A DNA stretch of 64,000 nt from Xestospongia bergquistia (lineage: Eukaryota; Porifera; Demospongiae; Haplosclerida; Petrosiidae). Within the stretch, counting starts at the first letter, position 1, and each line of letters opens with the position of its first letter. The translations under genes were made by a program, and so were the position numbers. Below, piece after piece: positions 12,846 through 32,790 of the stretch. The stretch covers positions 186,001 to 250,000 of the forward strand of contig OZ014416.1 in the NCBI GenBank assembly GCA_963965975.1, given 5' to 3'. The notes below the pieces were generated by a model. That model ran no database searches and was not told the DNA's origin. It saw only the letters and a list, made by a program, of their open reading frames with translations.

Positions 12846-13284
12846 ATGAAAACTAGAGGGAAGACGTATTTTTCCAATGGTATGTTGTAATTTACTATAA
12901 AATTATAACACGTCATTATTATTACAAGGTCAAGCATTGGAAAGTAGACCGTGGAGTCTATCAAAAGTAACTGAACTTTTCTGGGCACTCATAAATTTTA
13001 TTGTATTATTGTAAGTCATTGTTCTCTATTGTATCTTTGTAATAATATTGTATATAGTTTCAGATCTTTGATTGATCCCACTCTGAGTAGTAAAGGATCA
13101 AGATATTCAACTGATTATAGTAACAGTGGACGACCTGCCGATAGAGGAAGGAGAATAGGTCGTGTCAGAGGAGATGGTGGATCATCAGGTTAGACTAGTA
13201 ACCATGGCAACTTATTTGAATGATTTTTCTACTCGTATAGGTAGTCCAAGTTCTCCACCTATGGGTGGAGGAGGATGAGGCTAG
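12846..13284 (+). CDS. SELENOK: Selenoprotein K, in-frame TGA = Sec
   Basis: Small ER membrane selenoprotein that in vertebrates works with p97/VCP in ER-associated degradation and with DHHC6 in palmitoylation. Exons 12846-12879, 12929-13010, 13064-13188 and 13241-13284 give about 95 residues: a short lumenal start with YFSNGQALESRPWSL, one transmembrane segment (ELFWALINFIVL), then a Gly/Arg/Ser-rich cytosolic tail (RPADRGRRIGRVRG) and SPPMGGGG. The next codon is TGA (13276-13278), followed by GGC and TAG, so the end reads GGGG-Sec-Gly-stop, matching the family's terminal GGUG(R). The human protein is 94 aa. A convincing SECIS lies 110 bp downstream. Without recoding the protein would lose only two residues, but the UxxG-type end is the diagnostic feature. 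It shares a promoter region with USP5. Confidence 0.93.
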
Positions 13285-13373: not shown

Positions 13374-13452
13374 GACCACACCCTCTAATTACATGACGCC
13401 ACGTTAGGAAATGAACTTCAACTAATGTGGCTGATGGAAGAGGTTGTATGAA
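13374..13452 (+). promoter_or_regulatory. SECIS element of SELENOK
   Basis: In the 3' UTR, ATGA at 13393-13396 and TGAT at 13432-13435 can form the non-Watson-Crick quartet. Between them GCCACGTTAG pairs with CTAATGTGGC over ten base pairs with one G-U wobble, closing an apical loop that begins with G and AA. Below the quartet, CCTCT (13382-13386) can pair with AGAGG (13439-13443), giving the lower helix with an internal loop between. Distances match a eukaryotic SECIS. Not folded by computer. Confidence 0.88.
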
Positions 13453-17461: not shown

Positions 17462-17589
17462 TTAATAGTATTTCATATGAAGTATACGGACTTTTAATGA
17501 GAACTTCCTTCCATTACTTTTGCCTACAAATTTCAGAACGTTTCCGTATCCTTTTCGGAAACGTTTATCACGTGGTGTTCATAACTATG

Positions 17590-27655: not shown

Positions 27656-28549
<894 letters not shown>

Positions 28550-28684: not shown

Positions 28685-29678
28685 ATGGCTACTTCTGCGG
28701 GTCCTGATAACTCTCAACTAGAGAAGATTGCAAAGAATATCATTTTAAATGTCCCCACAAACGAAGTAGGTTATAATCTGAAAAATATTTAATTTATTCA
28801 CTTGTCATTCTTTACCCTGTAGTCTATACCTGTAGAGAGTCTCTGGGCTGACAGTGATGCTGTCATTATGTTTCTTAGACGATTTGGATGACAGCTGTGT
28901 CGGCTTGGGGCTGTGAAACTCAGTCTCATACAGGTAGCCATATTACCATGCATCCATTTGTTCATGCATACATCCATGTAGCCATTGCTAGAGCAAAATG
29001 GGGTAAAGTTGGTTGCTGTGGGATTGGAACAATTAGGAGCTGAAGAGTTTGTTGAGAGAAAATTCTTCGCGGGTAAAGTTTATGTTGACGAGAAAAAACA
29101 GTGCTACCAAGACCTTGGTTTTAAAAGGTATAGTATCTATATGATATTGATGGTGTTATGATTGATATCTTTCAGATTTTCTTGGTTATCCATCTTTAAA
29201 GCATTGATAAATGTAGTATCTCGACGAGCTATAGCTGAGGTATATATACATCTTTTATATGGTGTTAAATTTATCATGCTTCTTTGATTTTATAGGCAAG
29301 ACAAAAAAAGATTGATGGCAATCTTAAAGGTGATGGCCTTCAAAATGGTGGTCTCCTTATAGTTCGAAAAGGAGGTGAATTAATTTACTTTCACAAAGAG
29401 GAGACTCCTGGTGATCATGTTGGTAATGATGAGATTTTACAAGCACTTGGAATTGATCCAGGAAAAACAGAGTATGTTTATAATAATGTCACTTTCTGTC
29501 CATTTTAGAGTTTGTTTATCCATTTATAATTTACTATCTGTCCATTTATAGTACATCACCTACTGAAGAGATCAAAGCAATGGAAGAAGAAGCTGTCAAT
29601 TGTGATACAGCTTGTGCTATAGTTGGTGAAATTCCTGATGAAATTAAACCAAAGAAATTTGAACTCAAGAAAAAGTAA
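28685..29678 (+). CDS. PRXL2B: PRXL2B/SelU-type thioredoxin-fold selenoprotein, TGA = Sec
   Basis: Peroxiredoxin-like protein of the FAM213/SelU family; human PRXL2B is prostamide/prostaglandin F synthase. Exons 28685-28765, 28823-28933, 28982-29127, 29176-29239, 29296-29471 and 29552-29678 join without frame breaks to 234 residues. In exon 2 the active-site segment is FLRRFG-TGA-QLCRLGA, with TGA at 28889-28891, exactly where human PRXL2B has Cys in LRRFGCVVC. Reading TGA as Sec gives a UxxC redox motif. Downstream matches include LLEQNGVKLVAVG, FFAGKVYVDEKKQCYQDLGF, IDGNLKGDGLQNGGLLIV and HKEETPGDHVGN. The C-terminal 40 residues are an extra charged tail. A SECIS follows the stop, and four downstream coding exons retain the frame, so this is not a pseudogene. 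Confidence 0.93.
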
Positions 29679-29760
29679 CTCCCACATAATAATATAATAA
29701 TAATTATCATAATTATATTGTAATATGTAAGTATGCTGCTTTATAACAGGTGTATCTGGG

Positions 29761-29840
29761 TACATTTACATGTGGATATGATGAAATGGGTGTGGTTAAT
29801 CTTACAAGAAGCCGCACCTATTGATGTGTACTATCCAATG
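29761..29840 (+). promoter_or_regulatory. SECIS element of the PRXL2B-type selenoprotein
   Basis: ATGA at 29781-29784 and TTGAT at 29821-29825 form the quartet. Between them AATGGGTGTGGTT pairs with AGCCGCACCTATT over 13 base pairs including G-U wobbles, with an apical loop starting AA (29798-29799). Below, TGGATA (29773-29778) pairs with TATCCA (29832-29837) across an internal loop. It begins about 100 bp after the stop. Spacing and core match a canonical animal SECIS; not folded by computer. Confidence 0.9.
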
Positions 29841-29926
29841 TGTGTATCTTGACCCACTTTGTTTGTTTAATTTGTTATTCTTCAATTTAAAACCATTATG
29901 ACACCTTTTTAAATAAATCCTATTAG

Positions 29927-32790
29927 TTACCATGTAATAGCACCATAATGTGCTGACTTAACAGAACGTCGGTACTTCCCTAATAATCCTGGAAGATCAT
30001 CTCTAGGTGGTTTCCATTGGGAACAACGTTCAGCTAATATTGACTCGTCCACATTCTTAATTAAACAGTAGTTATTATACCATACTATTTAGCTCCACCT
30101 ACCAAATTTATCAGGCGAGTTTTGGCATCAATACTTATTATATCTCCCTCTTCTACAAATGCTATTGGGCCACCTTCATAAGCTTCTGGTGTCACATGAC
30201 CCACCATAATACCTGTTTGAAAAATTTGTAAAACCAGTTTAATTGATTATAATATTTTACCATGAGATGCACCACTGAATCGACCATCAGTTATCAAAGC
30301 AACAGTTCGTCCTAGCCCCGCCCCCACTAATGCTGCTCCAGGAGATAGCATTTCTGGCATACCAGGACTACAATATACAGTACATAGCAATCACTACTGT
30401 TAGTTTTCCATATATACCTTCCTTTGGGTCCCTCGTAACGTATAATGAGGACATCCCCTGGTTTAATCTATTAAGAATAATTTGTATAATAATTATTAGG
30501 TTCATACCTTTCCAGCCATAATAGCATCATATGCAGTATATTCACCATCAAAGACACGAGCCTACAATCAACATTATTGTCATATATATTATACATAGTA
30601 AGTTATTTACTGGTCCTGTGAAAGGTTTGTCGAATACTTTACCACTTAATTTTAATAGTGCACTCTCAGGACAAAGAGAACCCTGTAATTAAAGCAATAA
30701 TTAAAATGTCTCTTATTATATTTTAATAATTTACTTTCATAACTATAATATGGTTTCCAGGAGATGATAGAGGATTATTGAGTGGACGGACAACTTCCTA
30801 ATAAGGGCATTAATTATATTGAGTGGGTGGAGTGCTAACTTGTTTGAGATCAACCATACGAGGTACAGTTACAAGGTTTTCTGCCAGAGTTTTTCCAGTT
30901 ACAGTAAGACAATCTCCATGTAATAAACCACCTTCTAACAGTTCTTTTTGAATGACCTGAGGTATGGATACATAATTAGGATAATGGATGTGGACATAAA
31001 CCAATGGACGCATATAAAACATACCGGCAGTCCACCTATAGTATGGAGATCAGACATATGATACTATAAGGATAGGGGTCAGAGTTTAAAGGTTAAAAAT
31101 CAGCAATGTACCTTGCCATGAGGTTTTAAATTAGCTAAAAGAGGTACTCGGTCACCAATGGTATTAAATTCTTCGATACTCAAATCAACTCCAGCTCTAC
31201 AATATATATGGTTAATTCATACAGTAGACAGACCACACCCCTTACTCATAAGCTAATGCCAGCAAATGTAACACTCCATTTGTAGAACCTCCAAGTGCAT
31301 ACATTATAGTAATGGCGTTTTCAAAGGCCTGCCAGTACATGAAGTAATAGGATAATGCTATTTGTTACCTTTTTAGTCATGATTTGTCTTGAAGTTATTT
31401 TTTTAGAGAGAAGTTGAAATACAATATTAACAATGTCAGAACAATGGTTGTATTTTTCTTCTGTCACTTTGTTCTCTCTCGATACAGCTGGACTAGAACA
31501 TGTCCCTTCAGATAACACAACATACAAATGATACAATAGTACACGTGTAGGTCATTTACCTGGAGGAGACATCCCTAGTGCTTCAATAGCAGAACTCATT
31601 GTGTTAGCCGTAAACATACCACCTTAAAATAAGAAAGGATCAGTTATCTATCTATTTATTCATCCATCTGGCATCTGTCCATTCATTAATCTATTTATCC
31701 ACTTACCACAAGATCCTGATCCAGGTAAGGCAAAGCATTCAATTGTATGTAATTCTTCCATATCAATTAATCCAGCACCATATGATCCAATAGCTTCCAT
31801 TATTGTTTGAGCATCCCATGCTACATCTCGGTCTTCACACTTTCCAGGAAGAATTGTCCCCCCATATAGGCTAGCACCTATAGCATTAAGACGAGCTACA
31901 GGCATTACCACACCAGGTACTAAAAATAAAACATAGTATATGATGTCATAAACTTTTATTAACCTGTTTTATCACAGCCTCCTAGAGCAATAATAGCGTC
32001 CTAGTATTGTTTATTAGTATATTGTTAGTATATCGTTAGTATATTGTTAGTATATTGATAGTATATTGTTAGTATATTGATAATATAATATGATATTATT
32101 AGATGGTAACTTGATGTACCGCAAAATAAGCTTGATGCATAATTTCTGCACAGTCAGCAATCCAATCACGTGATATTAGGGAATAACGCATACCCACTGA
32201 GCCCTGTAATTAATATGTTAATAGTGGGAGGAGTAATGTGAATGGAGCTTACATTGGTTTCTCCATCACTGACAACAGGTGTACCACAAATGAATGCTTT
32301 ACCTAAATTAATTAGTAATAGCATAATAATTAAACCACACCCTCACCTCCTAGTTTTTCAACCTCCTTCACAATAATATCAGTTAATTCACTTGAAAAAT
32401 AAAAGTTTAATTAGTAAATAATTAAGGAGGTGCTTACCGAAAATGATTATTGCATGGTAGAGCATTACTGTAAGGGCTAATGACTGTGATAATTGGTTTA
32501 GTGAAGTCCTCATCCTATGAGTGTCATGTGATAGTCACGTAATAGCATTGTATTATGCAATTAAACCTTAAATCCTGCTCCTCTAAGATGAGCTCTAGCT
32601 GCAGACTGTTCAATATATGATATAATAATATAATTATTAAACACTCACTCTTTTCACCCACAAATGATGATCTTCTTTCTTTCCAGTTAATGCATTGCTA
32701 TTTACCTGCAAATTATAATACAACAGTGAAGAACAACTTAATGGGTACCTTTAAACTAGGAGAAGCGTCTAAAGACAGGAATGTTTCCAT
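29927..32790 (-). CDS. Dihydroxy-acid dehydratase (IlvD/ILV3 family)
   Basis: Iron-sulphur enzyme of valine, leucine and isoleucine biosynthesis. Starting at 32790, about 18 small exons give a full-length protein. The N-terminal half has [21 protein letters not shown] (first cluster Cys), [26 protein letters not shown] (second Cys), [17 protein letters not shown] and [20 protein letters not shown] (third Cys). The C-terminal half has [65 protein letters not shown], the catalytic-Ser site [16 protein letters not shown] and [15 protein letters not shown], ending SAHYGAITW at 29927. All cluster and active-site residues seem present, so it should be functional. I see no clear mitochondrial presequence. 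Related sugar-acid dehydratases of the ILVD/EDD family are possible, but these motifs are DHAD-like. The enzyme is normally absent from animals; dense host-type introns rule out recent bacterial contamination. Confidence 0.9.
32000..32095. repeat. Minisatellite in a DHAD intron
   Basis: About seven copies of a 12-bp unit of the form TTAGTATATTGT with small variants lie in tandem within an intron of the dihydroxy-acid dehydratase gene. Confidence 0.75.

Follow-up and report, generated by a model that had tools for sequence, protein, structure and literature searches.

A probable selenocysteine form of PRXL2B (SelU3) with a SECIS element in a sponge genome

The closest described relatives of the gene considered here are the SelU3 genes of the sponge Amphimedon queenslandica, for which Jiang et al. 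(2012, PMC3473315) list four SelU selenoproteins, with Aq.SelU3_b and Aq.SelU3_c among the selenoprotein genes. In the available parts of that paper SelU3 is equated with prostamide/PGF synthase, and the two Amphimedon genes form a cluster in which Aq.SelU3_c is incomplete and has no SECIS element. Three of the eight SelU3 proteins treated there are Cys forms, those of sea urchin, amphioxus and sea squirt, and the change from Sec to Cys in SelU3 is suggested to have possibly predated the divergence of the deuterostomes. According to the accessible portion of Mariotti et al. (2012, PMC3316567), every Sec-containing SelU sequence of the vertebrate set falls in SelU1, and SelU is also mentioned in the part of PMC3828610 that was available. 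The corresponding parts of PMC7539508 and PMC9925728 hold nothing on PRXL2B, and among the matches listed for the open-access literature nothing on a sponge Sec-type PRXL2B is more specific than Jiang et al. (2012).

The window, by which we mean the whole stretch of 64,000 nucleotides of sponge DNA that was analysed, carries what appears to be a working nuclear gene for the Sec form of PRXL2B (SelU3), in which a SECIS element recodes a UGA codon and the product is a UxxC redox enzyme; we put the probability of this reading at about 0.93. The gene consists of six exons between 28685 and 29678 on the forward strand, and the joined product has 234 residues followed by the stop codon (Table 1). 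The exon borders were picked so that the frame is kept, each of the five introns has GT/AG borders, and the resulting model reproduces both the six exons and the one in-frame TGA that had been given in the preliminary description. The TGA, at residue 50, is the only one ahead of the TAA, and the frame is open from the one through to the other.

Table 1. Features of the PRXL2B and SELENOK genes, in positions of the window
Feature	Position	Strand	Basis or remark
PRXL2B exon 1	28685..28765	+	Start codon ATG
PRXL2B exon 2	28823..28933	+	FGU-QL-C; length 111 nt; both borders in phase 0
PRXL2B TGA, predicted selenocysteine, residue 50, first position of UxxC	28889..28891	+	Frame and alignment
PRXL2B exon 3	28982..29127	+
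PRXL2B exon 4	29176..29239	+
PRXL2B exon 5	29296..29471	+
PRXL2B exon 6, with TAA stop	29552..29678	+	Stretch past residue 190 lies outside the human match
PRXL2B SECIS element, 3′ UTR (AUGA, 13-bp helix, AA, UGAU)	29781..29825	+	Fold and pattern scan
Candidate poly(A) signal AATAAA, 3′ of the SECIS element	29912..29917	+	Function inferred
SELENOK, four exons	12846-12879, 12929-13010, 13058-13188, 13241-13284	+	PF10961, E 3.3e-21
SELENOK TGA	13276-13278	+	PPMGGGGUG-stop end
SELENOK SECIS element	13393-13435	+	Scan score 24; hairpin z -5.1

The family membership of the product appears clear. The joined protein matches the AhpC-TSA_2 domain (PF13911) over residues 64-170 (E 3e-25, 89.2 bits against a cut-off of 27), and with the TGA read through the best PDB match found by phmmer is the prostamide/PGF synthase 9us9 (E 1.3e-45), which we take to be human PRXL2B, as the PDB record gives the synthase name alone. 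The two proteins are 46% identical across 178 residues, and in the alignment residue 50 falls on the first of the two Cys in the human CxxC, the second being retained, so that the redox motif reads RRFGUQLC in the sponge and RRFGCVVC in the human protein. In the entry 9usa both CxxC positions are occupied by Ser, which fits a catalytic role of these positions; 9usa is presumably a mutant built to test the catalytic cysteines. In a branch comparison that covered human PRXL2B and the PRXL2A of the same genome, the window protein scores 156 bits against the former and 85.5 bits against the latter, and it carries the RRFG-C/U-xx-C motif. The assignment to the PRXL2B branch and the placement of the TGA at the catalytic Cys of the family, both proposed beforehand from the sequence, are thereby upheld. 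The genome search yielded one copy of PRXL2B, the six matches of 84-100% identity all lying within the window gene. Four further weak matches (30-32%) are located on contig C12, and the two that were examined, L020 and L021, are kinase frames.

The 3′ UTR contains a SECIS-type hairpin that runs from AUGA through a helix of 13 bp, AA and a short second helix within the loop to UGAU, and the distance from the stop codon to the AUGA is 102 nt. The hairpin is stable, with folding z values of -3.5 for 111 nt and -3.8 for 71 nt, and at each length none of 200 shuffled sequences was as stable. With a score of 26 it is the first of ten hits on both strands of the window in a SECIS pattern scan, a score that is not a blind one since the scan was devised with knowledge of the PRXL2B candidate. 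The same score was attained in 0 of 60 and 1 of 300 simulated one-strand windows. From the latter, in which there was one such event to go by, the chance of such a hit in any given 1 kb can be put at about 5 in 100,000. The preliminary description had named a 13-bp SECIS hairpin with ATGA/AA/TGAT about 100 bp past the stop, and in this it proves accurate. The Rfam SECIS model (SECIS_1) finds no match in the PRXL2B element, even with the threshold at E 10; this miss weighs little, because the model likewise fails to match the SECIS element of SELENOK, and of four other candidates in the genome it gives any match to two and one above the cut-off. In a MAFFT alignment of four SECIS elements the 3′ arms fall out of register.

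As the TGA is one base away from both Cys codons, it might instead be a true stop, a Cys-to-stop mutation in a decaying pseudogene, or a TGC or TGT codon misread in sequencing. Such a reading is very improbable, however, as the coding sequence is conserved on either side of the TGA, with 13 of 38 residues identical to the human protein before it and 67 of 140 in the open frame behind it, the GT/AG borders are in place at all five introns, a SECIS-type element is present at the expected place, and no other PRXL2B-like gene was found in this genome, which has both tRNA-Sec and SepSecS. Another way to avoid the TGA would be a main product that skips exon 2, whose length and phase permit an in-frame join; the resulting protein would be without the UxxC, the family's most characteristic part, and the SECIS element would presumably be left purposeless, which makes this outcome just as hard to credit. 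The Sec form of PRXL2B therefore appears to be by far the better explanation, with Sec predicted to be inserted at residue 50.

SECIS-directed recoding of UGA is well established for selenoprotein families, and several signs suggest that the genome reads TGA as Sec. A tRNA-Sec was recovered (78 bits vs a cut-off of 47), its anticodon being read as UCA by ARAGORN, and exons of SepSecS are grouped on contig C13. Of the Sec apparatus the search covered these two components; EFSec and a SECIS-binding protein are presumably present as well. Several other genes bear TGA codons at Sec sites, and of these SelS, SelL and PRXL2A are so labelled on the basis of their motifs. The gene that we take to be SelS (L001) ends in GGGGUG-stop, with the TGA at the expected Sec site, and the SelL-like L005 has the motif RHYGULSUL, in which a UxxU (1331-1342) contains two TGA codons, and at 1822-1868 a SECIS candidate of the GTGA type (score 23). 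The presumed PRXL2A in L004 (1188-2043, a five-exon model) reads RRPGUSLCRE and has a SECIS candidate at 2074-2116 (score 20); L004 lies above and L005 below the cut-off of PF13911. Finally, two glutathione peroxidases are found on contig C5, a Sec form (L039) with the motif SEUGL and a Cys form (L038) with SECGY. The SECIS candidates of SelS and of the Sec-type glutathione peroxidase have scan scores of 19 and 17, which are unspecific, because a second, chance hit in L005 scores 18. In folding, the SelL candidate gives a clear result (z -4.4, with none of 200 shuffles as stable), those of PRXL2A and SelS do fairly well (3 and 5 of 200, respectively), and that of the glutathione peroxidase is weak (z -1.2, 25 of 200).

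Other families gave less. No match to PF08806 (Sep15/SelM) was obtained in the genome search, which is no evidence of absence, since the control was also without a match; a match to PF10262 is present at locus L028. A sponge AphC-like Sec family is described in the available part of Jiang et al. (PMC3473315). Nine matches to PF00578 were found here, and the sequence within 90 bases of each shows either a Cys or nothing recognisable as an active-site residue; a TGA at the active site was seen within this reach in none of the nine, and the AphC-like Sec family is thus unseen here, which is not proof of its absence. Viral contigs gave 23 pattern matches and no relatives.

Through the second hit of the pattern scan another selenoprotein gene of the window was recognised, SELENOK, which is absent from the preliminary description (Table 1). 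SELENOK and PRXL2B share a strand and are separated by about 15 kb, and the third-best pattern hit in the window is at 17571 on the minus strand (score 22). The upstream neighbour of PRXL2B, in head-to-head orientation, is a gene on the minus strand (27712-28546, extent approximate) that encodes an ICAT domain and that we take to be LZIC. Its ATG is at 28546, 139 bp from that of PRXL2B, and a promoter shared by the two genes is possible. Downstream, in convergent orientation, there are intron-containing minus-strand pieces of a dihydroxy-acid dehydratase (29927-30384 and further), two of the three scanned pieces scoring above the cut-off of the family (ILV_EDD_C). Dihydroxy-acid dehydratase belongs to branched-chain amino acid synthesis and is unusual in animals.

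How the protein would work can be proposed from its family, in which the redox motif of a thioredoxin-type fold is well known. The SECIS element in the 3′ UTR, together with a SECIS-binding protein, EFSec and tRNA-Sec, would cause the UGA in exon 2 to be decoded as Sec50, which with Cys53 would form the UxxC redox pair of a thioredoxin-type fold. Sec50 would most likely attack a peroxide, Cys53 would resolve it with formation of a selenenylsulfide, and the enzyme would then be regenerated by a reductant of the thioredoxin or glutathione type.

Going by the name of its closest solved relative, PRXL2B, also as a Sec form, would have the activity of a prostamide/prostaglandin F synthase in the sponge. 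The haem peroxidases of the genome speak against this. At least four animal haem-peroxidase loci can be told apart by position, the number being a lower bound since intron-split genes can be missed in the genome search. Three of them, L043, L044 and L045, hold a full-length haem peroxidase domain within a single open frame, and two of these three lie on contig C2 within about 6 kb. The comparison with PDB entries took in L043, L045 and one exon of the fourth locus; lacto- and myeloperoxidase proved nearest to the two full-length domains and dual oxidase to the exon, and no cyclooxygenase was recognised among them. A synthase of this kind in the sponge is thus unlikely and a prostaglandin role of PRXL2B there doubtful, and since no cyclooxygenase was found among the haem peroxidases compared, the evidence leans towards a peroxide- or disulfide-reducing role. 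Such a role permits a wider and tentative suggestion, to which we give somewhat less than even odds: in a sponge without cyclooxygenase PRXL2B would be a selenoperoxidase, and its prostaglandin role in vertebrates a later use that arose with or after the replacement of Sec by Cys. If true, animal PRXL2B began as a Sec-containing peroxide or disulfide reductase. The sponge gene offers a test of whether or not the human prostaglandin enzyme descended from a general selenoperoxidase.

The comparison with the known systems may begin within the same genome. The PRXL2A/SelU1 gene in L004 resembles PRXL2B in having a UxxC at the matching place and a SECIS candidate downstream, and differs from it in belonging to a different branch, as the score of their comparison indicates, in its hydrophobic N-terminus and in its exon number. 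Taken together with this Sec-type PRXL2A and with SelL, the window gene lends support to the published view that Sec was the starting state of the SelU branches in animals. Human PRXL2B (9us9, 9usa) is of the same family as the sponge protein and has the CxxC at the same position, its first residue being Cys in the human and, as predicted, Sec in the sponge enzyme, and the C-terminus of the sponge protein extends beyond the match to the human one.

The mitochondrial DNA offers a further point of comparison with A. queenslandica. Contig C21 of the window's genome (18,997 bp) is mitochondrial, with 25 tRNA calls by ARAGORN on one strand and proteins readable in code 4, and it carries atp9, the gene for ATP synthase subunit c. 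In the accessible part of PMC2444032, atp9 is present in all 22 demosponge mtDNAs analysed except that of A. queenslandica. The mtDNA of the window's genome keeps atp9, in contrast to that of A. queenslandica as described there, which indicates a sponge, in all likelihood a demosponge, of another species than A. queenslandica. Oscarella, which was counted among the demosponges in that set of mtDNAs, is now placed apart.

It is the SelU3 of A. queenslandica, to the extent that the available description allows a comparison, to which the window gene is most similar: both are sponge genes of the same branch in the Sec form, and Aq.SelU3_b likewise has a SECIS element, which has GUGA as opposed to the AUGA of the window gene. 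By description, A. queenslandica has the cluster of Aq.SelU3_b and Aq.SelU3_c, and in the window species one copy was found. The preliminary description had held that this lineage kept the Sec form, which agrees with the available part of PMC3473315, where SelU3 is a Sec protein in Amphimedon and a Cys protein in deuterostomes; that Sec was kept and not regained follows from that paper, our own sequence comparison with other animals covering the human PDB entries. The claim of a Sec form is therefore right and not new, as a Sec-type SelU3 is already in print for Amphimedon, and the window gene extends the published pattern to what would be the second sponge species on record for a Sec-type PRXL2B, here with a complete gene, its SECIS element and its genome context.
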